Shown: positions 28,199 to 45,488 of the stretch, one piece after another | How the letters are laid out: each line of letters starts with the position of its first letter | Numbering within the stretch: position 1 is the first letter of the stretch | Origin: Streptomyces formicae | Lineage (GTDB): Bacteria; Actinomycetota; Actinomycetes; Streptomycetales; Streptomycetaceae | Length of the DNA stretch: 64,000 nt | NCBI RefSeq assembly: GCF_022647665.1 | Contig: NZ_CP071872.1 | Coordinates: 1,736,001-1,800,000 of the forward strand | Reading direction: 5' to 3' | Position numbers and translations under genes: made by a program | Notes under the pieces: generated by a model | What the model was told of the DNA's origin: nothing | Database searches by the model: none | Seen by the model: the letters and a program-made list of their open reading frames with translations, nothing else

Positions 28199-28621
28199 TT
28201 AGTTGAGAAGACTTCCCTGGAGTTCGGCACGGAGGTCCGGGGTAAGGACACTGCCCGCGCGGTCGACCAGGAGGGCCATCTCGTAGCCCACGAGGCCGAT
28301 GTCGGCGTCGGGGTGGGCGAGCACGGCCAGCGAGGAGCCGTCCGACACGGACATGATGAAGAGGAAGCCGCGCTCCATCTCCACGACGGTCTGGTTGACG
28401 GCCCCGCCTTCGAAGATGCGTGAGGCACCTGCGGTCAGCGAGGTCAGACCGGACGCGACGGCCGCCAACTGGTCGGCGCGGTCGCGCGGGAACCCCTCGG
28501 ACATCGCCAGCAGGAGTCCGTCGGCGGAGACCACCACGGTGTGGGACACCCCGGGGGTGTTGTCCACGAAGTTGGTGATCAACCAGTTCAGATTCTGCGC
28601 CGCCTGGCTCATCGGGCTCAC
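28199..28621 (-). CDS. cvnB: Conservon I roadblock/LC7 protein CvnB
   Basis: A 140-residue roadblock/LC7-fold protein, probably the regulator of the CvnD GTPase. MSPMSQAAQNLNWLITNFVD starts the protein; HTVVVSADGLLLAMSEGFPR and the LAAVASGLTSL helix are typical. GTG 28621 is chosen from AGGAG seven bases upstream; ATG 28612 is the alternative. It starts one base after the cvnA stop. The 3' third differs from the other two cvnB copies (LAHPDADIG, DRAGSVLTP), while the rest is nearly identical, marking the recombination history of this locus. Confidence 0.92.
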   Translation of the reverse strand: MSPMSQAAQNLNWLITNFVDNTPGVSHTVVVSADGLLLAMSEGFPRDRADQLAAVASGLTSLTAGASRIFEGGAVNQTVVEMERGFLFIMSVSDGSSLAVLAHPDADIGLVGYEMALLVDRAGSVLTPDLRAELQGSLLN

Positions 28622-28622
28622 A

Positions 28623-31600
28623 CTAACGCTCCTGGTTGTAGGTATTACCCGGGCCACTCTGTCGATCGTGAGTGGCCATTCCGTTCGTGTCGTTCCCCGC
28701 GCTGCGTCCCTTCTGAACACCGCGCCGCAGGTTGCTCAACCTGCCACGCACGTCTTCAGGGGCACGGGAGACCTGGGGTCCGCCCTGCGGGGTCTGCTCC
28801 GCCGTGCCCTCGACCAGATTGGCCTTGGGGACGCGCCGGGGGAGACCGGACGGGGTGACTCCGCCGGCCGCAGGCTTGCGGAGCTTCTCGGCCCGCTGCC
28901 AGCGCTCGTCGTTCGCCGAGCGCCAGCCATCGGAGCCCTCCGCCTCGCCCCGCCCGTTCTGCGGTTCCTGCGGAGCCTGGGTCTGTGCGGCCTGGCCGCC
29001 CTGAGCCGGCTGGCCGCCGCCACGGCGCGGCAGACCGGCGTCGGTGAGCTGGTGGCCGTTGCTCGGAGCGACACCCGGACGGTCGAAGCCTACGCGGTCG
29101 GCGCCGTTCGCGGGAGCGCCGGGCGCAGATTCCGCATCCTGGCGGTACTCCGGCTCGTACGCACCCTGGTACCCGCCCTGGTCGGCCCAGTTGCTCTGGT
29201 GGGAGCCGTGCGCGATCGGGGCGTCGTACTGCGCTTGGTGCTCCTGCGGGGCGTCGTACGAGCCCTCCGCATAGCCCTGGTCGGCGTGCTCGGGGTAACC
29301 GCCGGGCACCGGGAACTCACCGGTGCGGCCGTAGCCGTCGCCTCCGTCGTAGCCGTAACCGTTCTGCTCGTACGAGGGCTGCTGCTCCTGCGGAGCGAAG
29401 CCCTGGTCGTACTGCTCGTCGGCGTACTGGCCATCGGCGTACTCGGCGTACTGCTCCTGCTCGCCGTAGGCCGGCTGCTGGGCCTCGTCGCGGAAGAGCG
29501 GGCGGTCGCCCCCGTGCGCCTGCGACCCGAGGGCCGCACGGCGCTCCTCGCGCATCAGCGAGCGGTTGACCGGGTCCAGCTGGCGGGAGTCCGCCGGCTG
29601 CTCCTCGTAGCGCGAGTCGTCGAAGCCCAGCTCCGCGGCGGTGCGCATCGGGGCGGAGTCGAACGCCTGCTGCGTCGGGATCATCTGCGAGACGGTGAAG
29701 TCGTCCTGGGCGGCGGCGGGCTCGCCACCGCCACCGTGGGTGATCGCGTCCGGGAGCATCACCAGCGAGGTCGTCCCGGCCTGCTCGCCCGAGGGGCGCA
29801 GCTGGACGCGGATGCCGTGCCGGTCGGCGAGGCGGCCGACCACGAAGAGGCCCATGCGCTGCGAGACGGCGGCGTCCACCGTCGGCGGGTTGGCCAGCTT
29901 GTGGTTGATGTCGGCGAAGTCCTCGGCGGTCAGGCCGATCCCCTTGTCGTGGATCTCGACCATGACGCGGCCGTCGGGCAGCCGGGTCGCGGTGACGCGG
30001 ACCTTCGTCTGCGGCGAGGAGAACGTCGTCGCGTTCTCCAGCAGCTCGGCGAGGAGGTGCACGAGGTCGGTCACGGCCTGGCCGTGGATCTCGCTCTCCG
30101 GGACGCCGGTCAGCTCGATGCGCTCGTACGCCTCCACCTCGGAGGAGGCGGCGCGGAGCACGTCCACGAGCGGCACCGGCTGGTTCCAGCGGCGGCCGGG
30201 CTCCTCGCCGGCGAGGACGAGGAGGTTCTCGCCGTTGCGGCGCATACGGGTCGCGAGGTGGTCCAGCTTGAAGAGGTTCTCCAGCTGGTCCGGGTCGGCC
30301 TCGTTGTTCTCCAGGTCGGTGATCAGGGTCAGCTGGCCCTCGATCAGCGACTGGTTGCGGCGCGACAGGTTGGTGAAGATCGCGTTGACGTTGCCACGGA
30401 GCAGGGCCTGCTCGGCGGCGAGCCGCACGGCCTCGCGGTGGACCTGGTCGAAGGCGCGGGCGACCTCGCCGATCTCGTCCTGCGTGTCGATCGGGATCGG
30501 CTGCACCCGGGTGTCGACCCGGCCGGGCTCGGTACGGGACAGCTGGTCGACCAGCATCGGCAGCCGCTGCTCGGCGATGCCGAAGGCGGCGGTGCGCAGC
30601 CGGCGCATCGAGCGGCTCATCTGGCGGGCCACCATGCCGGCCACGATGAACGCGGTGAGCAGGGCGAGGACGGTGATCAGACCGTTGACGATGGCGTCGG
30701 TCCTGGCCTCGTCGGCGATCCGGGCGGCCTCGGACACGGACTTGTCGACGAGCTCCTTCTCGATCTCCGTGTAGCCGTCGAACTTGGCGGTGGCGGCGGC
30801 CATCCAGACCGTCGGCGTCACACCGCGCGCGGCGAGCTCCTCGGGCTCGTCGCCGGTGCTGATGGCGGCCACCATGCCGTCGTAGACGGAGCCGTTCTTG
30901 ACCGGCGGGGCCTTGAAGTCGATACCAGCGGCCTTGGCCTGCTGGGCGGCGGCGGCGAGCTTGGCGGCGCCCTCCTCCGACTTGGTGCCCATGACCGTCT
31001 TGAGCTTCTCGGTGTCCTCGTCCGTACCGCCGGAGACGTACTCACCGAGGGCGATGCCCTCCAGGTAGGCGTACGAGGAGAAGGCGACGACCTGACCGGC
31101 CTTGATGGACTGCTTGTCGCTCGGGCGCACCAGCAGCTCCATGCCGATGGAGCGCTGGAGCGACTCGGCGGCCTTGGCGAGCTGGATCGCGTAGACCATG
31201 CGGCCGAAGCTGGTGACGTTCCCGGTGCCGAGGCCGAGTTCGTTCGAGAACTCCATCAGGTAGTGCTGGACACCGATGTAGCCCTCCTGCGTGGCCACTG
31301 GACCGCCCGAGTTGTCCGGCTTCTTCTCCGCGGTCTCGATCGCGACGGTGTAGGCGCCCTTGCGCAGGTCCTCGAGAGCGGGCTCCGCGTTACGGAAGAG
31401 CTTGAGGCGGCGCTCCAGGCCCTGCTTCTCGGGCATGTCCTGGACGGCCTCGTCGAACTTCTTCTTGGCGGCGTCGGTGGCCGCCCGGGTCTGCTCGACG
31501 ATCTCGGCGTCGCGCTTGCCCTGGAGCAGCGGCTCGGCGGTGAGGTCACGCTCGTTCAGCAGCGCCTGGCCGTAGTCCGAGGCGGCGCGCACGATGAGCG

Positions 31601-31871
31601 CCGTCTTCTCGGCGTCCTGCGCCTCGTTCCAGGTGTCGATCGAGCCCTTCACCTGGAAGCCGCCCATGACGAGGGCGACCAGCGCGGGGATCAGGAGGAT
31701 GGCGTTCAGCCGAGTGGGCACACGCCAGTTGCGCGGGGACAGTCTGCTGGAACTGCCACTGGTGGGGGTTGCCACGGGCTGCACATCCGCAGGCGACGCC
31801 GCTGCCCGCGGGGGCGGGGTGAAGTTGCCCCGCGCCAGCTGCTCTGCGGAGCTCGATTTGCTTCGCCTCAC
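28623..31871 (-). CDS. cvnA: Conservon I sensor kinase-like protein CvnA
   Basis: A 1,082-residue membrane sensor. Membrane segments at 56-74 and 395-414 bracket a 320-residue extracellular helical region of the nitrate/nitrite-sensing (NIT-like) type. HAMP-like linker 415-480; a kinase-like core with LDHLATRMRRNGENLL (H538), N-box HLLAELLENATTF (605-617), G1 DKGIG (642-646) and G2 GLFVVGRLADRHG (674-686). The 370-residue C-terminal tail is disordered and rich in Tyr, Gln and Gly. Whether CvnA phosphorylates anything is unknown. GTG 31871 has a weak ribosome binding site. The protein is identical to CvnA of cluster II. Confidence 0.92.
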   Translation of the reverse strand: MRRSKSSSAEQLARGNFTPPPRAAASPADVQPVATPTSGSSSRLSPRNWRVPTRLNAILLIPALVALVMGGFQVKGSIDTWNEAQDAEKTALIVRAASDYGQALLNERDLTAEPLLQGKRDAEIVEQTRAATDAAKKKFDEAVQDMPEKQGLERRLKLFRNAEPALEDLRKGAYTVAIETAEKKPDNSGGPVATQEGYIGVQHYLMEFSNELGLGTGNVTSFGRMVYAIQLAKAAESLQRSIGMELLVRPSDKQSIKAGQVVAFSSYAYLEGIALGEYVSGGTDEDTEKLKTVMGTKSEEGAAKLAAAAQQAKAAGIDFKAPPVKNGSVYDGMVAAISTGDEPEELAARGVTPTVWMAAATAKFDGYTEIEKELVDKSVSEAARIADEARTDAIVNGLITVLALLTAFIVAGMVARQMSRSMRRLRTAAFGIAEQRLPMLVDQLSRTEPGRVDTRVQPIPIDTQDEIGEVARAFDQVHREAVRLAAEQALLRGNVNAIFTNLSRRNQSLIEGQLTLITDLENNEADPDQLENLFKLDHLATRMRRNGENLLVLAGEEPGRRWNQPVPLVDVLRAASSEVEAYERIELTGVPESEIHGQAVTDLVHLLAELLENATTFSSPQTKVRVTATRLPDGRVMVEIHDKGIGLTAEDFADINHKLANPPTVDAAVSQRMGLFVVGRLADRHGIRVQLRPSGEQAGTTSLVMLPDAITHGGGGEPAAAQDDFTVSQMIPTQQAFDSAPMRTAAELGFDDSRYEEQPADSRQLDPVNRSLMREERRAALGSQAHGGDRPLFRDEAQQPAYGEQEQYAEYADGQYADEQYDQGFAPQEQQPSYEQNGYGYDGGDGYGRTGEFPVPGGYPEHADQGYAEGSYDAPQEHQAQYDAPIAHGSHQSNWADQGGYQGAYEPEYRQDAESAPGAPANGADRVGFDRPGVAPSNGHQLTDAGLPRRGGGQPAQGGQAAQTQAPQEPQNGRGEAEGSDGWRSANDERWQRAEKLRKPAAGGVTPSGLPRRVPKANLVEGTAEQTPQGGPQVSRAPEDVRGRLSNLRRGVQKGRSAGNDTNGMATHDRQSGPGNTYNQER

Positions 31872-32209
31872 TCGACCAACAACCTCTCGGCGTCGGCACC
31901 TACGTTGTGCCGTTTATTGTTTCAGGGCCGTACTACTCACGAGTTCGTTGATTTCAGCACGCCGGGCGCGTCCGTTCCAAACAGCGGGAACGGGCCGTTC
32001 CGAGCTCTCCAGGCCACCGATAAAACGGGCATAAAGAGCGAGCCCCGGCAAATAGCGGGGCCAATGTGAGCACAGCGGTACCAGCCGGATGCGTCGAGTG
32101 TCCGAGCCCGGCCAATTCTCTGTCGAAACGTTATGAACACGGAGGCGGACCGTGTCAAAAGACACAGCCCGCCCACGATTTCTCTACGACAACTGCCGTA
32201 TACACGCGC
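31872..32209 (-). other. Promoter region of conservon I
   Basis: 338 bases between cvnD of cluster II and cvnA of cluster I, identical to 36969-37306. AT-richer than the genes. It holds a perfect GTGTC-AAAA-GACAC hairpin at about 32150-32163. No convincing gene: an 83-codon minus-strand frame lacks codon bias. Likely carries the cvnA promoter. Confidence 0.5.
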
Positions 32210-32791
32210 CTACTTGAGACGGGCCATGAGGGCGTGCTCGACGAGGGTGATGAGGGCGCTTTTGGCGTCCGCGCGGTGGCGGGCGTCGGTGGTGATGATC
32301 GGGGTGCCGGGGCCGATCTGGAGCGCTTCGCGTACTTCGTCGGGGGTGTATGGCTGGTGTCCTTCGAAGCCGTTGAGGGCGACGACGAAGGGCAGTCCGC
32401 TGTTTTCGAAGTAGTCGACGGCGGGGAAGCAGTCGGCGAGTCGGCGGGTGTCGACGAGTACGACGGCGCCGATGGCGCCGCGGACGAGGTCGTCCCACAT
32501 GAACCAGAAGCGGTCCTGTCCGGGGGTGCCGAAGAGGTACAGGATGAGGTCCTGGTCCAGGGTGATGCGGCCGAAGTCCATGGCGACCGTGGTGGTGGTC
32601 TTGTCTCCGGTGTGGGTGAGGTCGTCGATGCCCGCGGATGCGGATGTCATGACGGCCTCGGTACGCAGCGGGTTGATCTCCGAGACGGCGCCGACGAACG
32701 TGGTCTTGCCCACGCCGAAGCCGCCCGCCACCACGATCTTCGCACTGGTGGTAGAGCGTCCCGCTCCGCCGCTAGAGCTTCCGAAGTCCAC
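32210..32791 (-). CDS. cvnD: Conservon II GTP-binding protein CvnD
   Basis: A 193-residue conservon GTPase with P-loop GGFGVGKT and switch II GTPGQDRFWF. It is identical to CvnD of cluster III (37307-37888), from which it was duplicated. It differs from cluster I CvnD only at a few positions (SSGGAGR, QIGPGTP, MARLK end). It overlaps cvnC by 20 bases, as in the other clusters. Its product could interact with any of the three CvnC/CvnB sets. Confidence 0.93.
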   Translation of the reverse strand: MDFGSSSGGAGRSTTSAKIVVAGGFGVGKTTFVGAVSEINPLRTEAVMTSASAGIDDLTHTGDKTTTTVAMDFGRITLDQDLILYLFGTPGQDRFWFMWDDLVRGAIGAVVLVDTRRLADCFPAVDYFENSGLPFVVALNGFEGHQPYTPDEVREALQIGPGTPIITTDARHRADAKSALITLVEHALMARLK

Positions 32792-33179
32792 TGAGCACCC
32801 TTTCGAGCAGTGTCACGTCCGGCGTGCCGCCGGCCTCTCCGTTGCCCGGCTGGTGGATCGCCACCATGCCTGCCTCCGCCAGGTCCGCCACGAGGATCCG
32901 CGCCACACCGAGCGGCATGGACAGCAGCGCCGACACCTCGGCGACCGACTTGACCTCCCGGCACAGGTGGCAGATCCGCTGGTGCTCGGGCAGAAGTGTC
33001 GCAAGGTGCGCCGGGTCGGCCGTGGTGCTCACCAGAGCCTCGATGGCGAGCTGGTAGCGCGGCCGGGTCCGGCCGCCGGTCATCGCATAAGGACGCACCA
33101 GCGGCTGGTCGCCTTCATGACCGTAATCGGTGTCCACCGGGACACCGTACGGATCGTGAGAGGCGGGGGGCGGGGTCAT
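32772..33179 (-). CDS. cvnC: Conservon II DUF742 protein CvnC
   Basis: A 135-residue DUF742 protein with a short N-terminal linker (MTPPPASHDPYGVPVDTDYG) and the domain core LVRPYAMTGGRTRPRYQLAI, CREVKSVAEVSALLSMPLGV, VTLLERVLSGLRKL. Two cysteines (HLCREVK, CHLC) occur in the helix before the HTH. GGAGGATTC precedes ATG 33179. Identical to CvnC of cluster III. It is distinct from CvnC of cluster I in its linker and several core residues. Confidence 0.92.
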   Translation of the reverse strand: MTPPPASHDPYGVPVDTDYGHEGDQPLVRPYAMTGGRTRPRYQLAIEALVSTTADPAHLATLLPEHQRICHLCREVKSVAEVSALLSMPLGVARILVADLAEAGMVAIHQPGNGEAGGTPDVTLLERVLSGLRKL

Positions 33180-33295
33180 GAATCCTCCGGGAGTGACAGC
33201 AAGTGGTCGGCTGTGCCGTCTGACTGGGCCGGTGGGGGGCCGGATGGGGCGGCCTGACGGTGTAGGGCGGATGTGAGGAGCATTTCGTACGACTA

Positions 33296-33718
33296 CTAGT
33301 GCAGCAGACTCCCCTGGAGTTCTGCACGCAGGTCCGGTGTGAGTACCGTGCCCGCGCGGTCGACCAGGAGGGCCATCTCGTACCCCACCAGACCGATGTC
33401 GCAGTCGGGGTGCGAGAGCACGGCCAGCGAGGAGCCGTCCGACACGGACATGATGAAGAGGAAGCCGCGCTCCATCTCCACGACGGTCTGGTTGACGGCC
33501 CCGCCTTCGAAGATGCGTGAGGCACCTGCGGTCAGCGAGGTCAGACCGGACGCGACGGCCGCCAACTGGTCGGCGCGGTCGCGCGGGAACCCCTCGGACA
33601 TCGCCAGCAGGAGTCCGTCGGCGGAGACCACCACGGTGTGGGACACCCCGGGGGTGTTGTCCACGAAGTTGGTGATCAACCAGTTCAGATTCTGCGCCGC
33701 CTGGCTCATCGGGCTCAC
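33296..33718 (-). CDS. cvnB: Conservon II CvnB, chimera of the cluster I and III genes
   Basis: A 140-residue roadblock/LC7 protein. Its 5' part (right of 33490) matches cluster I cvnB, for example GTCTGGTTGACGGCCCC; its 3' part (left of 33416) matches cluster III cvnB, for example LSHPDCDIG and SLLH at the C-terminus. The switch lies in a 75-bp stretch identical in all three genes (33416-33490). The gene is intact, with GTG 33718 preceded by AGGAG. This junction is the scar of the unequal crossover that made the middle conservon. Confidence 0.93.
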   Translation of the reverse strand: MSPMSQAAQNLNWLITNFVDNTPGVSHTVVVSADGLLLAMSEGFPRDRADQLAAVASGLTSLTAGASRIFEGGAVNQTVVEMERGFLFIMSVSDGSSLAVLSHPDCDIGLVGYEMALLVDRAGTVLTPDLRAELQGSLLH

Positions 33719-33719
33719 A

Positions 33720-36700
33720 CTAACGCTCCTGGTTGTAGGTATTACCCGGGCCACTCTGTCGATCGTGAGTGGCCATTCCGTTCGTGTCGTTCCCCGCGCT
33801 GCGTCCCTTCTGAACACCGCGCCGCAGGTTGCTCAACCTGCCACGCACGTCTTCAGGGGCACGGGAGACCTGGGGTCCGCCCTGCGGGGTCTGCTCCGCC
33901 GTGCCCTCGACCAGATTGGCCTTGGGGACGCGCCGGGGGAGACCGGACGGGGTGACTCCGCCGGCCGCAGGCTTGCGGAGCTTCTCGGCCCGCTGCCAGC
34001 GCTCGTCGTTCGCCGAGCGCCAGCCATCGGAGCCCTCCGCCTCGCCCCGCCCGTTCTGCGGTTCCTGCGGAGCCTGGGTCTGTGCGGCCTGGCCGCCCTG
34101 AGCCGGCTGGCCGCCGCCACGGCGCGGCAGACCGGCGTCGGTGAGCTGGTGGCCGTTGCTCGGAGCGACACCCGGACGGTCGAAGCCTACGCGGTCGGCG
34201 CCGTTCGCGGGAGCGCCGGGCGCAGATTCCGCATCCTGGCGGTACTCCGGCTCGTACGCACCCTGGTACCCGCCCTGGTCGGCCCAGTTGCTCTGGTGGG
34301 AGCCGTGCGCGATCGGGGCGTCGTACTGCGCTTGGTGCTCCTGCGGGGCGTCGTACGAGCCCTCCGCATAGCCCTGGTCGGCGTGCTCGGGGTAACCGCC
34401 GGGCACCGGGAACTCACCGGTGCGGCCGTAGCCGTCGCCTCCGTCGTAGCCGTAACCGTTCTGCTCGTACGAGGGCTGCTGCTCCTGCGGAGCGAAGCCC
34501 TGGTCGTACTGCTCGTCGGCGTACTGGCCATCGGCGTACTCGGCGTACTGCTCCTGCTCGCCGTAGGCCGGCTGCTGGGCCTCGTCGCGGAAGAGCGGGC
34601 GGTCGCCCCCGTGCGCCTGCGACCCGAGGGCCGCACGGCGCTCCTCGCGCATCAGCGAGCGGTTGACCGGGTCCAGCTGGCGGGAGTCCGCCGGCTGCTC
34701 CTCGTAGCGCGAGTCGTCGAAGCCCAGCTCCGCGGCGGTGCGCATCGGGGCGGAGTCGAACGCCTGCTGCGTCGGGATCATCTGCGAGACGGTGAAGTCG
34801 TCCTGGGCGGCGGCGGGCTCGCCACCGCCACCGTGGGTGATCGCGTCCGGGAGCATCACCAGCGAGGTCGTCCCGGCCTGCTCGCCCGAGGGGCGCAGCT
34901 GGACGCGGATGCCGTGCCGGTCGGCGAGGCGGCCGACCACGAAGAGGCCCATGCGCTGCGAGACGGCGGCGTCCACCGTCGGCGGGTTGGCCAGCTTGTG
35001 GTTGATGTCGGCGAAGTCCTCGGCGGTCAGGCCGATCCCCTTGTCGTGGATCTCGACCATGACGCGGCCGTCGGGCAGCCGGGTCGCGGTGACGCGGACC
35101 TTCGTCTGCGGCGAGGAGAACGTCGTCGCGTTCTCCAGCAGCTCGGCGAGGAGGTGCACGAGGTCGGTCACGGCCTGGCCGTGGATCTCGCTCTCCGGGA
35201 CGCCGGTCAGCTCGATGCGCTCGTACGCCTCCACCTCGGAGGAGGCGGCGCGGAGCACGTCCACGAGCGGCACCGGCTGGTTCCAGCGGCGGCCGGGCTC
35301 CTCGCCGGCGAGGACGAGGAGGTTCTCGCCGTTGCGGCGCATACGGGTCGCGAGGTGGTCCAGCTTGAAGAGGTTCTCCAGCTGGTCCGGGTCGGCCTCG
35401 TTGTTCTCCAGGTCGGTGATCAGGGTCAGCTGGCCCTCGATCAGCGACTGGTTGCGGCGCGACAGGTTGGTGAAGATCGCGTTGACGTTGCCACGGAGCA
35501 GGGCCTGCTCGGCGGCGAGCCGCACGGCCTCGCGGTGGACCTGGTCGAAGGCGCGGGCGACCTCGCCGATCTCGTCCTGCGTGTCGATCGGGATCGGCTG
35601 CACCCGGGTGTCGACCCGGCCGGGCTCGGTACGGGACAGCTGGTCGACCAGCATCGGCAGCCGCTGCTCGGCGATGCCGAAGGCGGCGGTGCGCAGCCGG
35701 CGCATCGAGCGGCTCATCTGGCGGGCCACCATGCCGGCCACGATGAACGCGGTGAGCAGGGCGAGGACGGTGATCAGACCGTTGACGATGGCGTCGGTCC
35801 TGGCCTCGTCGGCGATCCGGGCGGCCTCGGACACGGACTTGTCGACGAGCTCCTTCTCGATCTCCGTGTAGCCGTCGAACTTGGCGGTGGCGGCGGCCAT
35901 CCAGACCGTCGGCGTCACACCGCGCGCGGCGAGCTCCTCGGGCTCGTCGCCGGTGCTGATGGCGGCCACCATGCCGTCGTAGACGGAGCCGTTCTTGACC
36001 GGCGGGGCCTTGAAGTCGATACCAGCGGCCTTGGCCTGCTGGGCGGCGGCGGCGAGCTTGGCGGCGCCCTCCTCCGACTTGGTGCCCATGACCGTCTTGA
36101 GCTTCTCGGTGTCCTCGTCCGTACCGCCGGAGACGTACTCACCGAGGGCGATGCCCTCCAGGTAGGCGTACGAGGAGAAGGCGACGACCTGACCGGCCTT
36201 GATGGACTGCTTGTCGCTCGGGCGCACCAGCAGCTCCATGCCGATGGAGCGCTGGAGCGACTCGGCGGCCTTGGCGAGCTGGATCGCGTAGACCATGCGG
36301 CCGAAGCTGGTGACGTTCCCGGTGCCGAGGCCGAGTTCGTTCGAGAACTCCATCAGGTAGTGCTGGACACCGATGTAGCCCTCCTGCGTGGCCACTGGAC
36401 CGCCCGAGTTGTCCGGCTTCTTCTCCGCGGTCTCGATCGCGACGGTGTAGGCGCCCTTGCGCAGGTCCTCGAGAGCGGGCTCCGCGTTACGGAAGAGCTT
36501 GAGGCGGCGCTCCAGGCCCTGCTTCTCGGGCATGTCCTGGACGGCCTCGTCGAACTTCTTCTTGGCGGCGTCGGTGGCCGCCCGGGTCTGCTCGACGATC
36601 TCGGCGTCGCGCTTGCCCTGGAGCAGCGGCTCGGCGGTGAGGTCACGCTCGTTCAGCAGCGCCTGGCCGTAGTCCGAGGCGGCGCGCACGATGAGCGCCG

Positions 36701-36968
36701 TCTTCTCGGCGTCCTGCGCCTCGTTCCAGGTGTCGATCGAGCCCTTCACCTGGAAGCCGCCCATGACGAGGGCGACCAGCGCGGGGATCAGGAGGATGGC
36801 GTTCAGCCGAGTGGGCACACGCCAGTTGCGCGGGGACAGTCTGCTGGAACTGCCACTGGTGGGGGTTGCCACGGGCTGCACATCCGCAGGCGACGCCGCT
36901 GCCCGCGGGGGCGGGGTGAAGTTGCCCCGCGCCAGCTGCTCTGCGGAGCTCGATTTGCTTCGCCTCAC
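33720..36968 (-). CDS. cvnA: Conservon II sensor kinase-like protein CvnA
   Basis: A 1,082-residue protein identical along its whole length to CvnA of cluster I: same membrane segments, NIT-like extracellular region, HAMP linker, degenerate kinase core and Tyr/Gln-rich tail. The upstream 338 bases are also identical, so both copies should be expressed from the same promoter. The absence of any substitution implies that the duplication is recent, is being homogenised, or is an assembly product. Confidence 0.92.
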   Translation of the reverse strand: MRRSKSSSAEQLARGNFTPPPRAAASPADVQPVATPTSGSSSRLSPRNWRVPTRLNAILLIPALVALVMGGFQVKGSIDTWNEAQDAEKTALIVRAASDYGQALLNERDLTAEPLLQGKRDAEIVEQTRAATDAAKKKFDEAVQDMPEKQGLERRLKLFRNAEPALEDLRKGAYTVAIETAEKKPDNSGGPVATQEGYIGVQHYLMEFSNELGLGTGNVTSFGRMVYAIQLAKAAESLQRSIGMELLVRPSDKQSIKAGQVVAFSSYAYLEGIALGEYVSGGTDEDTEKLKTVMGTKSEEGAAKLAAAAQQAKAAGIDFKAPPVKNGSVYDGMVAAISTGDEPEELAARGVTPTVWMAAATAKFDGYTEIEKELVDKSVSEAARIADEARTDAIVNGLITVLALLTAFIVAGMVARQMSRSMRRLRTAAFGIAEQRLPMLVDQLSRTEPGRVDTRVQPIPIDTQDEIGEVARAFDQVHREAVRLAAEQALLRGNVNAIFTNLSRRNQSLIEGQLTLITDLENNEADPDQLENLFKLDHLATRMRRNGENLLVLAGEEPGRRWNQPVPLVDVLRAASSEVEAYERIELTGVPESEIHGQAVTDLVHLLAELLENATTFSSPQTKVRVTATRLPDGRVMVEIHDKGIGLTAEDFADINHKLANPPTVDAAVSQRMGLFVVGRLADRHGIRVQLRPSGEQAGTTSLVMLPDAITHGGGGEPAAAQDDFTVSQMIPTQQAFDSAPMRTAAELGFDDSRYEEQPADSRQLDPVNRSLMREERRAALGSQAHGGDRPLFRDEAQQPAYGEQEQYAEYADGQYADEQYDQGFAPQEQQPSYEQNGYGYDGGDGYGRTGEFPVPGGYPEHADQGYAEGSYDAPQEHQAQYDAPIAHGSHQSNWADQGGYQGAYEPEYRQDAESAPGAPANGADRVGFDRPGVAPSNGHQLTDAGLPRRGGGQPAQGGQAAQTQAPQEPQNGRGEAEGSDGWRSANDERWQRAEKLRKPAAGGVTPSGLPRRVPKANLVEGTAEQTPQGGPQVSRAPEDVRGRLSNLRRGVQKGRSAGNDTNGMATHDRQSGPGNTYNQER

Positions 36969-37306
36969 TCGACCAACAACCTCTCGGCGTCGGCACCTAC
37001 GTTGTGCCGTTTATTGTTTCAGGGCCGTACTACTCACGAGTTCGTTGATTTCAGCACGCCGGGCGCGTCCGTTCCAAACAGCGGGAACGGGCCGTTCCGA
37101 GCTCTCCAGGCCACCGATAAAACGGGCATAAAGAGCGAGCCCCGGCAAATAGCGGGGCCAATGTGAGCACAGCGGTACCAGCCGGATGCGTCGAGTGTCC
37201 GAGCCCGGCCAATTCTCTGTCGAAACGTTATGAACACGGAGGCGGACCGTGTCAAAAGACACAGCCCGCCCACGATTTCTCTACGACAACTGCCGTATAC
37301 ACGCGC
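36969..37306 (-). other. Promoter region of conservon II
   Basis: 338 bases identical to 31872-32209, between cvnD of cluster III and cvnA of cluster II. No gene seen; the same GTGTC-AAAA-GACAC hairpin occurs. Confidence 0.5.
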
Positions 37307-37888
37307 CTACTTGAGACGGGCCATGAGGGCGTGCTCGACGAGGGTGATGAGGGCGCTTTTGGCGTCCGCGCGGTGGCGGGCGTCGGTGGTGATGATCGGG
37401 GTGCCGGGGCCGATCTGGAGCGCTTCGCGTACTTCGTCGGGGGTGTATGGCTGGTGTCCTTCGAAGCCGTTGAGGGCGACGACGAAGGGCAGTCCGCTGT
37501 TTTCGAAGTAGTCGACGGCGGGGAAGCAGTCGGCGAGTCGGCGGGTGTCGACGAGTACGACGGCGCCGATGGCGCCGCGGACGAGGTCGTCCCACATGAA
37601 CCAGAAGCGGTCCTGTCCGGGGGTGCCGAAGAGGTACAGGATGAGGTCCTGGTCCAGGGTGATGCGGCCGAAGTCCATGGCGACCGTGGTGGTGGTCTTG
37701 TCTCCGGTGTGGGTGAGGTCGTCGATGCCCGCGGATGCGGATGTCATGACGGCCTCGGTACGCAGCGGGTTGATCTCCGAGACGGCGCCGACGAACGTGG
37801 TCTTGCCCACGCCGAAGCCGCCCGCCACCACGATCTTCGCACTGGTGGTAGAGCGTCCCGCTCCGCCGCTAGAGCTTCCGAAGTCCAC
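37307..37888 (-). CDS. cvnD: Conservon III GTP-binding protein CvnD
   Basis: A 193-residue conservon GTPase, identical to CvnD of cluster II. It carries the P-loop GGFGVGKT and GTPGQDRFWF. Its near identity to cluster I CvnD, in contrast to the divergent cvnA genes of the two ancestral clusters, points to gene conversion between them before the duplication. Confidence 0.93.
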   Translation of the reverse strand: MDFGSSSGGAGRSTTSAKIVVAGGFGVGKTTFVGAVSEINPLRTEAVMTSASAGIDDLTHTGDKTTTTVAMDFGRITLDQDLILYLFGTPGQDRFWFMWDDLVRGAIGAVVLVDTRRLADCFPAVDYFENSGLPFVVALNGFEGHQPYTPDEVREALQIGPGTPIITTDARHRADAKSALITLVEHALMARLK

Positions 37889-38276
37889 TGAGCACCCTTT
37901 CGAGCAGTGTCACGTCCGGCGTGCCGCCGGCCTCTCCGTTGCCCGGCTGGTGGATCGCCACCATGCCTGCCTCCGCCAGGTCCGCCACGAGGATCCGCGC
38001 CACACCGAGCGGCATGGACAGCAGCGCCGACACCTCGGCGACCGACTTGACCTCCCGGCACAGGTGGCAGATCCGCTGGTGCTCGGGCAGAAGTGTCGCA
38101 AGGTGCGCCGGGTCGGCCGTGGTGCTCACCAGAGCCTCGATGGCGAGCTGGTAGCGCGGCCGGGTCCGGCCGCCGGTCATCGCATAAGGACGCACCAGCG
38201 GCTGGTCGCCTTCATGACCGTAATCGGTGTCCACCGGGACACCGTACGGATCGTGAGAGGCGGGGGGCGGGGTCAT
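37869..38276 (-). CDS. cvnC: Conservon III DUF742 protein CvnC
   Basis: A 135-residue DUF742 protein identical to CvnC of cluster II, with the same GGAGGATTC ribosome binding site and a 20-base overlap with cvnD. It is one of the parental genes of the duplication. Confidence 0.92.
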   Translation of the reverse strand: MTPPPASHDPYGVPVDTDYGHEGDQPLVRPYAMTGGRTRPRYQLAIEALVSTTADPAHLATLLPEHQRICHLCREVKSVAEVSALLSMPLGVARILVADLAEAGMVAIHQPGNGEAGGTPDVTLLERVLSGLRKL

Positions 38277-38392
38277 GAATCCTCCGGGAGTGACAGCAAG
38301 TGGTCGGCTGTGCCGTCTGACTGGGCCGGTGGGGGGCCGGATGGGGCGGCCTGACGGTGTAGGGCGGATGTGAGGAGCATTTCGTACGACTA

Positions 38393-38815
38393 CTAGTGCA
38401 GCAGACTCCCCTGGAGTTCTGCACGCAGGTCCGGTGTGAGTACCGTGCCCGCGCGGTCGACCAGGAGGGCCATCTCGTACCCCACCAGACCGATGTCGCA
38501 GTCGGGGTGCGAGAGCACGGCCAGCGAGGAGCCGTCCGACACGGACATGATGAAGAGGAAGCCGCGCTCCATCTCCACGACGGTCTGATTGACCGTGCCG
38601 CCTTCGAAGATGCGTGAGGCACCTGCGGTCAGCGAGGTCAGACCGGACGCGACGGCCGCCAACTGGTCGGCGCGGTCGCGCGGGAACCCCTCGGACATCG
38701 CCAGCAGGAGTCCGTCGGCGGAGACCACCACGGTGTGGGACACCCCGGGGGTGTTGTCCACGAAGTTGGTGATCAACCAGTTCAGATTCTGCGCCGCCTG
38801 GCTCATCGGGCTCAA
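38393..38815 (-). CDS. cvnB: Conservon III roadblock/LC7 protein CvnB
   Basis: A 140-residue roadblock/LC7 protein, the parental source of the 3' part of the chimeric cvnB. It has a TTG start (TTGAGCCCGATGAGC) directly after the cvnA stop, where the other copies have GTG. Distinctive bases near 38588-38596 encode GGTVNQT instead of GGAVNQT. Apart from these, its first 70 codons are almost identical to cluster I cvnB, again suggesting gene conversion. Confidence 0.92.
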   Translation of the reverse strand: MSPMSQAAQNLNWLITNFVDNTPGVSHTVVVSADGLLLAMSEGFPRDRADQLAAVASGLTSLTAGASRIFEGGTVNQTVVEMERGFLFIMSVSDGSSLAVLSHPDCDIGLVGYEMALLVDRAGTVLTPDLRAELQGSLLH

Positions 38816-41800
38816 CTAACGCTCCTGACGGTGAGTGGGGCCGGCGTTGAAGCTGCCCGTGTTACCGGTGCTGCCCGCCTGGCGGCCTTGCTGGATACCC
38901 CGGCGGAGGTTGGTCAGCCGGCCCCGGACGTCGTCGGGAGCGCGGGAGACCTGCGGACCCGACTGGTGGCTCTGCTCCTGCGCGGTACCGGGCACCAGGT
39001 TGGCGCGCGGCACCCGCTTGGGCAGACCCGACGTGGTGATCCCGCCGGCCGAGGGCTTGCGGGCCCGCTCGGCCTGGCGCACCAGCTCATCGTTGGGCGA
39101 GGTGCGCCAGGCGGGCGCGCTCGCGTTGTACTGGCCGGTCTGGCCGGTCTGGCCGGTCTGAGCGGGCTGGCCCGCGGGGCGGCGCGGCGGCATGGCCGCG
39201 GCCGGACGCCCGCCGGGCTGCTGCGGAGCCGCCGAGGGCTGCTGGCCCCCCGCGCCGTAGCCGGGCTGACCGCCCTGGCCGCCCTGGCCTCCGTGCGCAC
39301 CGTGGAACCAGTTGGTCTCCAGCGTGTCGTACAGCGGCGTACGGCCGTCACCGGGGTTGCTCGCCGGCGGCAGCGCCTCGGACTGCTGCTGCGGGGGCGG
39401 ACTCCCGGCCGGGGGACGCGGTGCTCCGTAGTCGGCCGTGTCGCGGCGCTGACGCTGGGCGCCCTGGCCGTAGGCCTGCTGCGCGGGGGCCGGACGCGGG
39501 GCGTTGTAGTCGGGACGCACGAACTGCTCCGTCGAGGCCGGGTCCTGGGCGCCGGGCCGGGGGCCCTGGAAGTCCGGGCGGGCGAACTCGGCGGTGGAGC
39601 CGGGGCCCTGCCGGTCGTGCGCCGCACCCATCGGGCGGGCGTACTGGCCGGTGGACTCGGGGTCCTCGTGGCCGCGCGGGGCGTCCATCGGGGAGCGCTG
39701 CGGCACGGACGGCTGCTCGCTGCCCCAGCTGGTGGTCTCGGGGCGCTGCGAACGCGGCCCCTGCTGGCCGCTGCCCGGCAGCTCGGCGCGCGGGCCGCCG
39801 GAGGCCGGCAGCTGATGTCCGCGGTCGTCACCGGCGGGCGCACCCTGCCGGCCCTTGCGGCCGCGGCCGCCGGTGCCGAACGCACCGGCCGGAGCCCCGG
39901 CCTGACGCGACGCGTCCTGCTGGGGGCCGCCCTGGTACGGCGCGCCGTCCCGCCCGGGGAGCGCCGCCCGCGGCGCCGAACCCGCGCCGACCTGGCCGCG
40001 CTGCGCACCGGCGCCGAGCCGTCCCGCGGACGCGCCACCGGGACCACCCGACGGACTTCCGCCCAGACCGGGCCGGCCGCCACCGGGGCCACCGGACCCG
40101 CCCGGGCCACCGGACCCGCCGGCCGGACCGCGTCCGCCACCGGGACCCGCGGGCCCCTGCGGGGCGCCGTTCTGCGCGCCCGCACCGGGATTGCCCGGAG
40201 CCTTCCTGCCGCCGTGGGCGACATCGACGGGGAGCATGACCAGTGCGGTCGTACCACCGGAGTCGGACGGACGGAGCTGGATCCGGATGCCGTGCCTCAG
40301 GGACAGACGGCCGACCACGAACAGACCCATGCGGCGGGAGACCGAGACGTCCACGGTGGGCGGCGACGCCAGCCGCTCGTTGATCGCGGCGAGGTCCTCG
40401 GGGGAGAGGCCGATGCCGGTGTCGTGGATCTCGACGAGGACGCGGCCGTCCGGCAGCGCGTGACCGGTCACCCGGACCTTGGTCTGCGGCGAGGAGAACG
40501 ACGTCGCGTTCTCCAGCAGCTCGGCGAGGAGGTGCACGAGGTCGTTGACGACGCGGCCGGCGACCTCGGTGGCCGGCACGGCGGCCAGCTCGATGCGCTC
40601 GTACTGCTCCACCTCGGAGGCGGCGGCACGGAGCACGTCGACGAGCGGAACGGGCCGGGTCCAGCGGCGGCCCGGCTCCTCGCCCGCGAGGACGAGGAGG
40701 TTCTCGCCGTTCCGGCGCATACGGGTCGCGAGGTGGTCCAGCTTGAAGAGCGAGGACAGCTGGTCCGGGTCGGCCTCGCGGGACTCCAGCTCGGAGATGA
40801 GCGACAGCTGACGCTGGATGAGACCCTGCGAACGGCGCGACAGGTTGGTGAACATCGCGTTGACGTTGCCACGGAGCAGGGCCTGCTCGGCGGCGAGGCG
40901 GACCGCCTCGCGGTGCACGTCGTCGAAGGCCGCGGCCACCTGGCCGATCTCGTCCCGGGAGTGCACACCGACGGACTCGACGTGGGTGTCGACGTCCTGC
41001 GGGTCGGACTCGGAGAGCTGCTTGACGAGCTCGGGCAGCCGGTCCTGGGCGACCTTGGTCGCGGTGTCCTGGAGCCGGCGCAGCGAGCGGATCATGGACC
41101 GGGCGACGACGAAGGCGCCGACGAGCGAGACGCCGAGCACGACCAGGATCAGCGCACCGTTGATGATGGCGTCCTGCTGCGACTCCTGCTTCAGCTCGCG
41201 GGCGCGGCTCTCCATCTCACCGAGGAGGGTCTCCTCGATGGTGTTCATCGCCTGGATCTTGGTGTCCGCCTGGTCCGTCCAGTCCAGGTAGCTGCGGCGC
41301 TCGAAGCCGGTCAGGTCGCCGTTGTTGCGCAGCAGCCGGTCCGCGTACTTGTCGGCCTTCTCGATCTCGGAGTTGCCGGTCTCCAGCGGAGCCACGAGCT
41401 CCTCGGCGTTGCCGCCGAGCGAGGCGTAGATGGCGTTGAACGACTCCATCTCCTGACCCTCGTTGACCGCCGCGTCCTGGCCGGTCTGGCGGTCGTTCTC
41501 GGTCAGTGTGATCGAGCCCGTGGCGTTCTTCGGCAGCGCGGCCGCGATGATGGCGCGCTGGATCGACGCGTACTCCTTGGCGGACGAGAACGCGGCCAGC
41601 GCGCGGGTCCGCTTGATCATGTCCGGGTTGCTGGTCGCCTGGGCCATGTCCTGGGACAGGCTCAGCAGGGAGTCGATCAGACGGCCGTACTGCGTGATCG
41701 TCTGGGTGGGCGACCCGCCCTTGCTGTACGCCTTCTCCCGAATCTCGGTGATGGCGTGGATCTGCTGGGCGATCTGGGCGACATTGGAGCGGATGCTCTC

Positions 41801-42391
41801 CAGCGCGTCGTCCCCCGTGGTGTCACCGATGTCGCTGGTGGCATCGAGGAACGCAGCCTTGCGCTGGTCGGTCACCTTGCGGGGCTGCGCGACCTTGAAG
41901 TCCGTCTTGGCGCTGCCGTGCGCCAGCGGGCCTGCCGCGTGGTCGCGCTCGTTCTGGAGCGCCTCGGCGAGGGCGGTCGCCTCTCTGGTCATCTTCGTGA
42001 GCAGCTGCATGTGCTCCAGCTGCTCCATGTCGCTCATCGACTCGTTGATACGGAGCCCGCCCAGCGTGGTCGCGGCGACCACGGGGAGCGTGAGCAGGGA
42101 GACCAGACGGGTGCTGATGCGCCAGTTGCGCAGGGCTATTCGCGAGCCCGTGTCGGTGGGGCCCTTGGGCTTCCGCGGGGCCGCCGTGCCGGCGGCACCG
42201 CCCGGCGCCGCGCCGGAGCGCGCACCGCGGTCGCCGCCATTACTGCCCGGGGGCTGGGCCTGGTTCTGGGTGTGCTGGGGCGAGGAGCCGCGGTCGGTAC
42301 CGCCGTGCGGCTCGTGCTCCGCCGCAGCATCCCCTCGGCCATGGCGGGCCGGGGGAGACCCCGTGCCATCCCTCTTGAAACGTCCCTGCAC
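38816..42391 (-). CDS. cvnA: Conservon III sensor kinase-like protein CvnA (long tail)
   Basis: A 1,191-residue membrane sensor, paralogous to the other CvnA proteins but clearly divergent outside the kinase core. Membrane segments at about 97-114 and 411-430, NIT-like extracellular region between, HAMP, then LDHLATRMRRNGENLL, HLLAELLENATSFSSP, DTGIG and GLFVVGRLSLRHG. The C-terminal 430 residues are disordered, Pro/Gly/Gln-rich, with QTGQTGQTGQ and PGGGRGPAGGSGGPGG repeats. I chose GTG 42391 (VQGRFKRDG) with AGAGG upstream; the frame runs to 42697 but the added residues lack the pattern of a real N-terminus. It is the first gene of cluster III. Confidence 0.88.
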   Translation of the reverse strand: MQGRFKRDGTGSPPARHGRGDAAAEHEPHGGTDRGSSPQHTQNQAQPPGSNGGDRGARSGAAPGGAAGTAAPRKPKGPTDTGSRIALRNWRISTRLVSLLTLPVVAATTLGGLRINESMSDMEQLEHMQLLTKMTREATALAEALQNERDHAAGPLAHGSAKTDFKVAQPRKVTDQRKAAFLDATSDIGDTTGDDALESIRSNVAQIAQQIHAITEIREKAYSKGGSPTQTITQYGRLIDSLLSLSQDMAQATSNPDMIKRTRALAAFSSAKEYASIQRAIIAAALPKNATGSITLTENDRQTGQDAAVNEGQEMESFNAIYASLGGNAEELVAPLETGNSEIEKADKYADRLLRNNGDLTGFERRSYLDWTDQADTKIQAMNTIEETLLGEMESRARELKQESQQDAIINGALILVVLGVSLVGAFVVARSMIRSLRRLQDTATKVAQDRLPELVKQLSESDPQDVDTHVESVGVHSRDEIGQVAAAFDDVHREAVRLAAEQALLRGNVNAMFTNLSRRSQGLIQRQLSLISELESREADPDQLSSLFKLDHLATRMRRNGENLLVLAGEEPGRRWTRPVPLVDVLRAAASEVEQYERIELAAVPATEVAGRVVNDLVHLLAELLENATSFSSPQTKVRVTGHALPDGRVLVEIHDTGIGLSPEDLAAINERLASPPTVDVSVSRRMGLFVVGRLSLRHGIRIQLRPSDSGGTTALVMLPVDVAHGGRKAPGNPGAGAQNGAPQGPAGPGGGRGPAGGSGGPGGSGGPGGGRPGLGGSPSGGPGGASAGRLGAGAQRGQVGAGSAPRAALPGRDGAPYQGGPQQDASRQAGAPAGAFGTGGRGRKGRQGAPAGDDRGHQLPASGGPRAELPGSGQQGPRSQRPETTSWGSEQPSVPQRSPMDAPRGHEDPESTGQYARPMGAAHDRQGPGSTAEFARPDFQGPRPGAQDPASTEQFVRPDYNAPRPAPAQQAYGQGAQRQRRDTADYGAPRPPAGSPPPQQQSEALPPASNPGDGRTPLYDTLETNWFHGAHGGQGGQGGQPGYGAGGQQPSAAPQQPGGRPAAAMPPRRPAGQPAQTGQTGQTGQYNASAPAWRTSPNDELVRQAERARKPSAGGITTSGLPKRVPRANLVPGTAQEQSHQSGPQVSRAPDDVRGRLTNLRRGIQQGRQAGSTGNTGSFNAGPTHRQER

Positions 42392-42936
42392 TAGCGTCGC
42401 AACCTCTGGACCAGGCGTCCCTCCGCGTGAACGGCGAGACGGTGTCGGCGTCGTTCGGGGCGATGAACGTGCCCCATTGGTGGTGAGTGACTGGCGCTGA
42501 TCCCCCTTCCCGCCGCCACTCGGCGCTGCGTTGCGCCCCTGCGCGCCGGCCTGAAACCCGCGGCGGTGCGTGGAATTCCAGCACAGTGCCGGATCTCCAA
42601 CAAGGGCCGTGTACCGCCCCGTGACCTGAGTGACACGTTGTAATTGATGTGTCACAAACCGTAGAAAGTGATCTCGGAGGAATGGGACTTTTGACAACGA
42701 GTCGCATACGGGTGGGGGGTGCCCCAGTCGCCATGATCGGGAGCGGAATGGATGATTCAGCTATGCAATGTCCGTTTCCCCGATGGTGATTACCCGTCCG
42801 GAATGAGGGAATTGTGAGTCGCTTCGTGAGCAAACTCACACGTAGATCGATGCCTTATCCACGCTTTCGCAGGGAAACGGCTGTCTAGCCTGACGCTTTA
42901 CAAAGGCCATCGCTTCGACAAGGACCGAATCACCCG
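42392..42936. promoter_or_regulatory. Divergent promoter region of conservon III and the 57-aa gene
   Basis: 545 bases with no gene and lower GC. Two perfect inverted repeats stand out: GTGACAC-N12-GTGTCAC (42630-42655) nearer cvnA, and TGTGAGT-N14-ACTCACA (42813-42840) nearer the small gene. Either could be an operator. Promoter boxes are not clear enough to place. Confidence 0.5.
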
Positions 42937-43110
42937 ATGAAGACCATGATGTTCCGCAACATAGCCAACCCCCGGCGCACGACGCTGGCGCACCTCGATG
43001 ACGCCGGCGAACTGCTGCCGGAGACCCCGCCGGAGCACTCGGTCGACCTCCCCACCCAGACGGCCAACCCCCGCCGCACCACGCTGATGATCGCCCCGGT
43101 CGCGCCGTAG
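42937..43110 (+). CDS. Small peptide gene with duplicated ANPRRTTL motif (57 aa)
   Basis: Encodes a 57-residue peptide: MKTMMFRNIANPRRTTLAHL at the N-terminus, an acidic middle (DDAGELLPETPPEHSVDLP) and TQTANPRRTTLMIAPVAP at the C-terminus. The octapeptide ANPRRTTL occurs twice, 34 residues apart, with different codons, so it is conserved at protein level and not a DNA repeat. AAGGA lies 12 bases before the ATG, and a hairpin follows. Third positions are almost all G/C. No membrane segment. I do not recognise the family; it could be a RiPP precursor, a signalling peptide or a small adaptor. It is divergent from conservon III. Confidence 0.7.
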   Translation: MKTMMFRNIANPRRTTLAHLDDAGELLPETPPEHSVDLPTQTANPRRTTLMIAPVAP

Positions 43111-43225: not shown

Positions 43226-44011
43226 GTGCGCATCGCCAGATTCTCCATCGACGGCAATGTCGCCTTCGGCGCTGTCGAGGGCGACGGGACCGGCGACCCC
43301 GCCGGCCTCGTCCTCGACATCATCAAGGGCATTCCCTACGCCGACTTCGAGCTCTCCGGTACCAAGGTCCCGCTGAGCAAGGTCCGGCTCCTGCCGCCCG
43401 TACTCCCCAACAAGGTCGTGGCCATCGGCCGCAACTACGCGGAGCACGCGGCAGAGCTCGGCAACGAGGTCCCGGACGTGCCCGTCGCCTTCTTCAAGCC
43501 CACCACCTCGGTGATCGGCTCCGGCGACGCCATCGAGTACCCGTCCTTCTCCGACGAGCTGCACCACGAGGCCGAGCTCGCCGTCGTCATCGGCCGGCTG
43601 TGCCGCGAAGTCCCGCGCGAGCGCGTCAAGGACGTCATCTTCGGCTACACCTGTGCCAACGACGTCACCGCGCGCGACGCCCAGAAGCGCGAGAAACAAT
43701 GGGCCCGCGCCAAGGGCTTCGACACCTCGTGCCCGCTCGGCCCCTGGGTGGAGACCGACCTCGACCCCGGTGACCTCACCATCCAGTGCACGGTCAACGG
43801 CGAGCAGCGCCAGCTGGGTCGTACGAGCGACATGATCCGCTCCATCGAGGACCTGGTCGTCCACATCACCGAGGCCATGACACTGCTCCCCGGAGACGTC
43901 ATCCTCACCGGCACCCCCGCCGGGGTCGGCCCCCTCAACGTCGGCGACGAGGTCGCCGTCACCATCGAAGGCATCGGCACTCTCACCAACAAGGTGATCA
44001 AGCGTGGCTAA
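43226..44011 (+). CDS. Fumarylacetoacetate hydrolase-family protein
   Basis: A 261-residue FAH-fold enzyme. Members hydrolyse or decarboxylate acylpyruvates or fumarylacetoacetate-like compounds with a divalent metal. Motifs: AIGRNYAEHAAELGNEVPD, the metal-binding HHEAELAVVIG, TCANDVTARDAQ, KGFDTSCPLGPWV and ILTGTPAGVGPL. Size fits the short YcgM/HpcE-like acylpyruvase class; oxaloacetate decarboxylation is also known for this class, so the substrate is uncertain. GTG 43226 follows AAGG. A TAGCCT box lies at 43172-43177, next to a CTGGAG...CTCCAG hairpin. The 3' end overlaps gltX by eight bases, so they are cotranscribed. Confidence 0.9.
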   Translation: MRIARFSIDGNVAFGAVEGDGTGDPAGLVLDIIKGIPYADFELSGTKVPLSKVRLLPPVLPNKVVAIGRNYAEHAAELGNEVPDVPVAFFKPTTSVIGSGDAIEYPSFSDELHHEAELAVVIGRLCREVPRERVKDVIFGYTCANDVTARDAQKREKQWARAKGFDTSCPLGPWVETDLDPGDLTIQCTVNGEQRQLGRTSDMIRSIEDLVVHITEAMTLLPGDVILTGTPAGVGPLNVGDEVAVTIEGIGTLTNKVIKRG

Positions 44012-45488
44012 CGCGACGAACGTCCGCGTACGTTTCTGTCCCTCGCCGACCGGCAACCCCCATGTGGGCCTGGTCCGCACCGCCCTGTTCAACTGGGCGT
44101 TCGCCCGGCACAACCAGGGCACCATGGTCTTCCGTATCGAGGACACCGACGCGGCCCGCGACTCCGAGGAGTCGTACGAGCAGCTGCTCGACTCGCTGCG
44201 CTGGCTCGGCCTCGACTGGGACGAGGGCCCCGAGACCGGCGGCCCGCACGCGCCGTACCGCCAGTCGCAGCGGATGGACATCTACCAGGACGTCGCCGAG
44301 AAGCTCCTCGCCGGCGGGTACGCGTACCACTGCTACTGCACCGTCACCGAGCTCGACGAGCGCCGCGAAGCCGCCCGCGCGGCCGGCCGGCCCTCCGGCT
44401 ACGACGGCCACTGCCGCGACCTCACCGACGAGCAGAAGGCCGTCTACCAGCGCGAGGGCCGCGAGGCCATCGTCCGCTTCCGGATGCCCGACGAGCCGAT
44501 CACCTTCACCGACCTGGTCCGCGGCGAGCTCACCTTCACCCCGGACAACGTGCCGGACTACGGCATCGTCCGCGCCAGCGGCGCCCCGCTCTACACGCTC
44601 GTCAACCCCGTCGACGACGCGCTGATGGAGATCACCCACGTGCTGCGCGGAGAGGATCTGCTCTCCTCCACCCCGCGCCAGATCGCGCTCTACAAAGCGC
44701 TGATCGAGCTCGGCATCGCCAGGGAGATCCCGGCCTTCGGGCACCTCCCGTACGTGATGGGTGAGGGCAACAAGAAGCTCTCCAAGCGCGACCCGCAGGC
44801 CTCGCTCAACCTCTACCGCGAGCGCGGCTTCCTGCCCGAGGGCCTGCTCAACTACCTGTCCCTGCTGGGCTGGTCCTTCTCGGCCGACCAGGATGTCTTC
44901 TCGATCGCCGAGATGATCGAGAAGTTCGACATCGCGGACGTCAACGCCAACCCGGCGCGCTTCGACCTCAAGAAGGCCGAGGCGATCAACGCGGACCACA
45001 TCCGCCGGCTCGACGTGAAGACCTTCGCCGAGGCGTGCGAGCCGTGGCTGCGGGCCCCGCACGCCCCCTGGGCGCCCGAGGACTTCGACCAGGCCGCGTG
45101 GGAGGCGATCGCCCCGTACGCCCAGACCCGGCTGACCGTCCTTTCGGACATCACCGCCAACGTCGACTTCCTCTTCCTGCCCGAGCCGGCCGAGGACGAG
45201 GCGTCCTGGCAGAAGGCGATGAAGGAGGGCTCGGACGCGCTGCTGCGCACGGCCCGCGAGAAGCTGGCCGACGCCGACTGGTCGAGTGCCGAGTCGCTGA
45301 AGAACGCGGTGCTGGCCACCGGCGAGGAGCACGGCCTCAAGCTCGGCAAGGCCCAGGCGCCGGTCCGCGTCGCGGTCACGGGCCGCACGGTGGGCCTGCC
45401 GCTCTTCGAGTCCCTGGAGATCCTGGGCCGTGAGCGGACGCTCCAGCGGATCGACGCTGCGCTGACCAAGCTGGCGGCGCAGGCGTAG
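44004..45488 (+). CDS. gltX: Glutamyl-tRNA synthetase
   Basis: A 494-residue class I synthetase that charges tRNA-Glu. In bacteria without a glutaminyl synthetase it also charges tRNA-Gln with Glu for later amidation by GatCAB, and streptomycetes are thought to use that route. The HIGH-equivalent is PSPTGNPHVGL, and the KMSKS-equivalent is KKLSKRD; EDTDAARDSEES and LRGEDLLSSTPRQ are also typical. GTG start, overlapping the FAH gene. The tRNA-Gln and tRNA-Glu genes 1.1 kb downstream are exactly the two expected substrates. Confidence 0.97.
   Translation: MANATNVRVRFCPSPTGNPHVGLVRTALFNWAFARHNQGTMVFRIEDTDAARDSEESYEQLLDSLRWLGLDWDEGPETGGPHAPYRQSQRMDIYQDVAEKLLAGGYAYHCYCTVTELDERREAARAAGRPSGYDGHCRDLTDEQKAVYQREGREAIVRFRMPDEPITFTDLVRGELTFTPDNVPDYGIVRASGAPLYTLVNPVDDALMEITHVLRGEDLLSSTPRQIALYKALIELGIAREIPAFGHLPYVMGEGNKKLSKRDPQASLNLYRERGFLPEGLLNYLSLLGWSFSADQDVFSIAEMIEKFDIADVNANPARFDLKKAEAINADHIRRLDVKTFAEACEPWLRAPHAPWAPEDFDQAAWEAIAPYAQTRLTVLSDITANVDFLFLPEPAEDEASWQKAMKEGSDALLRTAREKLADADWSSAESLKNAVLATGEEHGLKLGKAQAPVRVAVTGRTVGLPLFESLEILGRERTLQRIDAALTKLAAQA

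Follow-up and report, generated by a model that had tools for sequence, protein, structure and literature searches.

What does a 57-residue protein that carries the same octapeptide near both ends do beside a Streptomyces conservon? The question arises from one window, a 64,000-nucleotide stretch of Streptomyces formicae (contig NZ_CP071872.1). A preliminary description of this DNA reported a short open reading frame with two copies of ANPRRTTL, and the frame and its translation are exactly as claimed:

42937..43110, plus strand: 57-residue twin-motif protein of the SCO5545 type, proposed accessory of the Cvn1 conservon
42964..42987, plus strand: repeat 1, ANPRRTTL, residues 10-17
42988..43059, plus strand: linker joining the two motifs, variable and with a net acidic charge
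43063..43086, plus strand: repeat 2, ANPRRTTL, residues 43-50, with an invariant T before it

The assigned start fits the family, in which [M/V]KTT is conserved, and the motifs of homologues lie 30-49 residues apart, mostly 33. The longest repeat in 100,000 composition shuffles of the peptide was 6. Two of the 24 bases differ between the copies, both synonymously (CGG/CGC and ACG/ACC). The preliminary description read selection on the peptide from such codon differences; the copies do differ only synonymously, but two changes alone are weak evidence, and it is the family alignment that supplies the case. Across 117 homologues with equal motif spacing, pN/pS was 0.011 for ANPRRT of repeat 1 and 0.079 for TANPRRT of repeat 2, versus 0.78 in mid-linker. 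All these values are pairwise proportions computed without correction from related sequences, and those of the motifs are biased downward, because the set was gathered by requiring two recognisable motifs. Residues A10, N11, P12, R14, T42, A43, N44, R47 and T48 are invariant among 73 diverse members of the motif-selected set, and hence carry the same bias. Judged from these alignments, purifying selection acts strongly on both ANPRRT cores and leaves the linker nearly free. In one locus (L187) a third copy, KTANPRRTP, lies in the same open frame (from 7049) upstream of the assigned start, and L082 was likewise flagged with three motifs.

The gene encodes a real, family-wide, uncharacterised protein of the Streptomycetaceae. 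A profile (A1) built from 22 homologues, in a search that did not demand the motifs, recovered it from 15 of 17 genera and from 293 of the 298 Streptomycetaceae genomes sampled. In the rest of the phylum the same search yielded only weak, chance-like matches, none of them convincing. Conserved homologues, whose absence would have counted against the preliminary description, are thus clearly present. Three of the five genomes with no match belong to one genus (g7) and hold a diverged copy at the equivalent place; another (G177) is 71% complete, and cvnA1 was not found there either. The most diverged genera give marginal profile matches, and there the equivalent position has a frame with two TANPRRT motifs, by which the peptide was recognised after BLAST had missed it.

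By locus context, the peptide is almost certainly the orthologue of S. coelicolor SCO5545, since both lie at the same position divergent from cvnA1, and a published binding site for the regulator ScbR2, a 24-mer, recurs exactly in another locus (L125), 242 bp ahead of the peptide start. SCO5545 appears as a “putative uncharacterized protein” in PMC4595836, so the earlier statement that the frame is too short for usual gene callers was wrong. A literature search by locus tag found no functional study of it, although the gene was already annotated. Searches of Pfam, NCBIfam (both over 73 members), PHROGs and PDB sequences gave no convincing match. AlphaFold, given 73 homologues, returned a mean pLDDT of 66 and a pTM of 0.16 with helix at residues 12-15 and 17-22 only; the model predicts no fold, which is what a linear-motif protein would be expected to give. 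ANPRRT has five six-frame matches in its own genome, of which two are the peptide gene and the rest lack a convincing gene, so the motif is not in wide use there and the partner of the peptide is probably specific.

The neighbourhood points to what that partner may be. On one side lies the Cvn1 conservon and on the other a pair of genes:

38816..42391, minus strand: cvnA1, NIT-HAMP-HATPase sensor kinase (Pfam NIT, HAMP, HATPase_c)
38393..38815, minus strand: cvnB1, roadblock/LC7 protein (Pfam Robl_LC7)
37869..38276, minus strand: cvnC1, DUF742 protein (Pfam DUF742)
37307..37888, minus strand: cvnD1, small GTPase (Pfam ATP_bind_1; open frame, start codon approximate)
43226..44011, plus strand: FAH, fumarylacetoacetate hydrolase-like protein, downstream neighbour (Pfam FAA_hydrolase)
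44004..45488, plus strand: gltX, named by similarity and taken from the list of open reading frames, overlapping the end of FAH

The NIT domain of CvnA1 is clear (E 2e-42). Compared by position, cvnA1 is adjacent and divergent to the peptide in 80 of 80 genomes. FAH adjoins the peptide in 73; in the other seven FAH-gltX has moved off and the peptide has stayed with cvnA1. A CvnA tree, on which six of these seven found a place, groups the six in a single clade with weak support; the separation may thus have been one event. The divergent arrangement recurs in all of 25 loci drawn mostly from other genera, with FAH, usually accompanied by gltX, next after the peptide except in two (L189 and L206). 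Across the family, the conserved neighbours of the peptide are cvnA-C, FAH, gltX and, in part, a HAD gene. Six genomes of other families in the same order have FAH beside gltX with no cvnA or peptide detected alongside. Peptide and conservon thus seem to have reached the locus together, joining a FAH-gltX pair that is older. Partnership with the conservon is therefore the one of three earlier suggestions that we favour, on the cvnA1 linkage and its survival when FAH-gltX moved; actual binding we infer.

Two further observations concern the conservons of the window. CvnA proteins end in a conserved tail sequence, QVSRAP(D/E)DVRGRL(T/S)NLRRG(I/V), common to the conservons in the window (38816-42391 for CvnA1). 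Its RLTNLRRGI segment was considered as kin of ANPRRT and set aside, the common part being only N-x-R-R, which is too weak. A 5.5-kb direct repeat (28200-33731 and 33297-38827, 99.6% identical) spans the neighbouring conservon and arose either by recent tandem duplication or through misassembly.

The other two suggestions, a signal peptide or the precursor of a modified peptide, found no support. A short, strongly conserved product adjoining a sensor kinase with a NIT sensory domain does invite the idea of a secreted or modified signal. However, the peptide has no Cys and, by inspection, no hydrophobic export segment (GRAVY -0.46), and the neighbours screened (cvnA-C, FAH, gltX and HAD) include no modification enzyme or transporter. 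Its conservation at both ends with a free middle is unlike a conserved leader with a variable core, and it is near-universal in the Streptomycetaceae. We regard a signalling precursor as very improbable.

Position just before FAH in most genomes also raises the possibility of a leader peptide, a translational attenuator of FAH-gltX, for which a rare codon would be the pause site:

42961..42963, plus strand: rare Ile codon ATA immediately before repeat 1

Of 156 distinct homologues, 84 carry ATA at this position; the sequences of that set have it nowhere else, and in seven genes of the window it accounts for 1 of 110 Ile codons. Almost all of 108 sequences use ACG for both Thr codons that follow AAG. 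This codon oddity, in sequences related to one another, suggests that the first ten codons are constrained at the nucleotide level. Against attenuation stand the retention of the peptide gene where FAH is elsewhere, the lack of a terminator-like site, ordinary RNA folding at the start (z 0.93, start region only) and strong constraint on amino acids encoded well past the ATA codon. An attenuator is the least probable explanation we considered, and we give it scarcely any weight.

More is suggested by the DNA between the divergent genes. With the CvnA1 start at the GTG at 42391, the region spans 545 bp, the length first reported, and the two perfect palindromes reported with it correspond to perfect 7-bp inverted repeats, GTGACAC/GTGTCAC at 42630/42649 and TGTGAGT/ACTCACA at 42813/42834. 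Three elements in this region stand out from comparison with other loci or with published sites:

42745..42768, no strand assigned: position corresponding to a ScbR2 site published for the interval from sco5544 (cvnA1) to sco5545 (PMC4595836), with 7 of 24 bases different here
42826..42839, no strand assigned: inverted repeat GTGAG-CAAA-CTCAC, a possible operator and the repeat that the family conserves, with GTGAG-N4-CTCAC in 145 of 190 loci and conserved columns
42886..42902, plus strand: conserved block TAGCCTGACGCTTTACA, a possible -10 element of a peptide-FAH-gltX unit, matching TAGCCTG[AG]CGCTTTAC exactly in 104 of 190 loci

Published studies make this region a hub for developmental regulators. 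In them, cvnA1 is a BldC target shared with BldD (PMC6428758) and, as cvnA1/sven5239, a WhiB target (PMC4850268), and its promoter is among those repressed by WblC (PMC7157823). The sco5544-5545 region, with a predicted site, is among the ScbR2 targets confirmed by EMSA, the divergent genes standing on separate lines of a target table that gives expression ratios of 1.024 for cvnA1 and 0.952 for sco5545 (PMC4595836). In the text consulted, none of the four papers studies the peptide itself.

Repeated elements in the adjacent DNA, together with the charge of the peptide, would suit a micro-protein that touches DNA or RNA through its basic NPRRT patches. The intergenic DNA common to both genes would be a possible target, through which the peptide could act on its own expression. 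In the window peptide the two ends are basic, with net charges of +4 and +2, and linker residues 21-41 carry -6. A nucleic-acid-binding role is nevertheless improbable, given no predicted fold, no match to a DNA-binding family, and invariant residues that include A, N, P and T, not Arg alone.

The main rival starts from the same regulatory hub: the peptide would be a developmental small protein with a partner unrelated to Cvn1, placed beside cvnA1 only through a common regulatory region. Linkage to cvnA1 could arise from shared regulation alone, a point that counts against an accessory role, and several intergenic blocks are indeed conserved. The peptide can also be missing where Cvn1 stays, as in two genomes, G054 and, from a separate sample, G010. 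In G010 (loci L263 and L246) the peptide frame is gone while CvnA, CvnB, CvnC and CvnD are all present and FAH-gltX is intact. Towards cvnA the locus keeps a GGAATTCCAGCAC block; it also keeps the GTGAG-N4-CTCAC repeat and a TAGCCTG block, with FAH coming directly after, so that TAGCCTG stands before FAH where the peptide is deleted. The CvnA tree places G010 inside Streptomyces, and the absence is therefore a secondary loss. These two genomes show that Cvn1 can do without the peptide, which makes the latter accessory, and the natural loss in G010 offers a comparison. A comparison of lineage-specific changes in their Cvn1 proteins gave no clear relaxed surface; unusual CvnA residues number 3 in G010 and 15 in G054, the latter perhaps reflecting the distance of G054. 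What speaks against an unrelated partner is a divergent linkage unbroken in 80 genomes and across many genera, together with the apparent arrival of peptide and conservon in the family as one. We consider this rival unlikely, though it deserves more weight than any other.

Most likely the peptide is a small Cvn1 partner that has so far gone unstudied. More specifically, we read it as a small, intrinsically disordered accessory of this actinobacterial G-protein system, a preference we hold at a little below an even chance. Disorder, together with a pair of constrained motifs on a free linker, suggests bivalent binding. Starting from the observed association with Cvn1 and the observed constraint on the motifs, we propose that each ANPRRTxL motif would bind one subunit of a Cvn1 component that forms a dimer, for which the CvnA1 kinase dimer and the CvnB1 roadblock dimer are candidates, and that the peptide would thereby bridge or modulate the Cvn1 complex. 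Its level would be set along with the conservon in development, because the intergenic region is common with cvnA1, a target of BldC, BldD, WhiB, WblC and ScbR2. More tentatively still, such a two-motif peptide, bridging a dimeric component and tuning signalling in Streptomyces development, may represent an accessory class not described before. In S. coelicolor, cvn1 is reported to affect aerial mycelium formation and antibiotic production (PMC6428758, PMC9739842). How a signal passes from sensor kinase to GTPase in conservons is an open question, and a small protein so widespread in the family and so closely linked to Cvn1 would offer a simple experimental handle.

Two kinds of known system invite comparison. 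Bivalent adaptors built on short linear motifs carry two short invariant motif copies on a flexible, fast-evolving linker. The peptide resembles them in its two constrained motifs and free linker, and differs in that its motif matched nothing in our searches and has no known partner domain. The other comparison is with conservon accessories, in the broad sense of genes stably linked to one conservon, a linkage the peptide displays throughout the 80 genomes and in diverse genera. CvnE, a cytochrome P450, and CvnF, a GAF protein, are encoded after the core genes of conservons whose CvnA lacks a sensory domain, and CvnF8 has been shown to modulate its kinase (PMC13343842). The protein studied here is instead tiny and disordered, gives no convincing match to GAF or cytochrome P450 across 73 members, is encoded divergently from cvnA1 in every one of the 80 genomes, and lies beside a CvnA1 that has a NIT sensor domain. 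In common with CvnE and CvnF (PMC13343842), its gene is an addition to the cvnA-D core and is linked to a single conservon.
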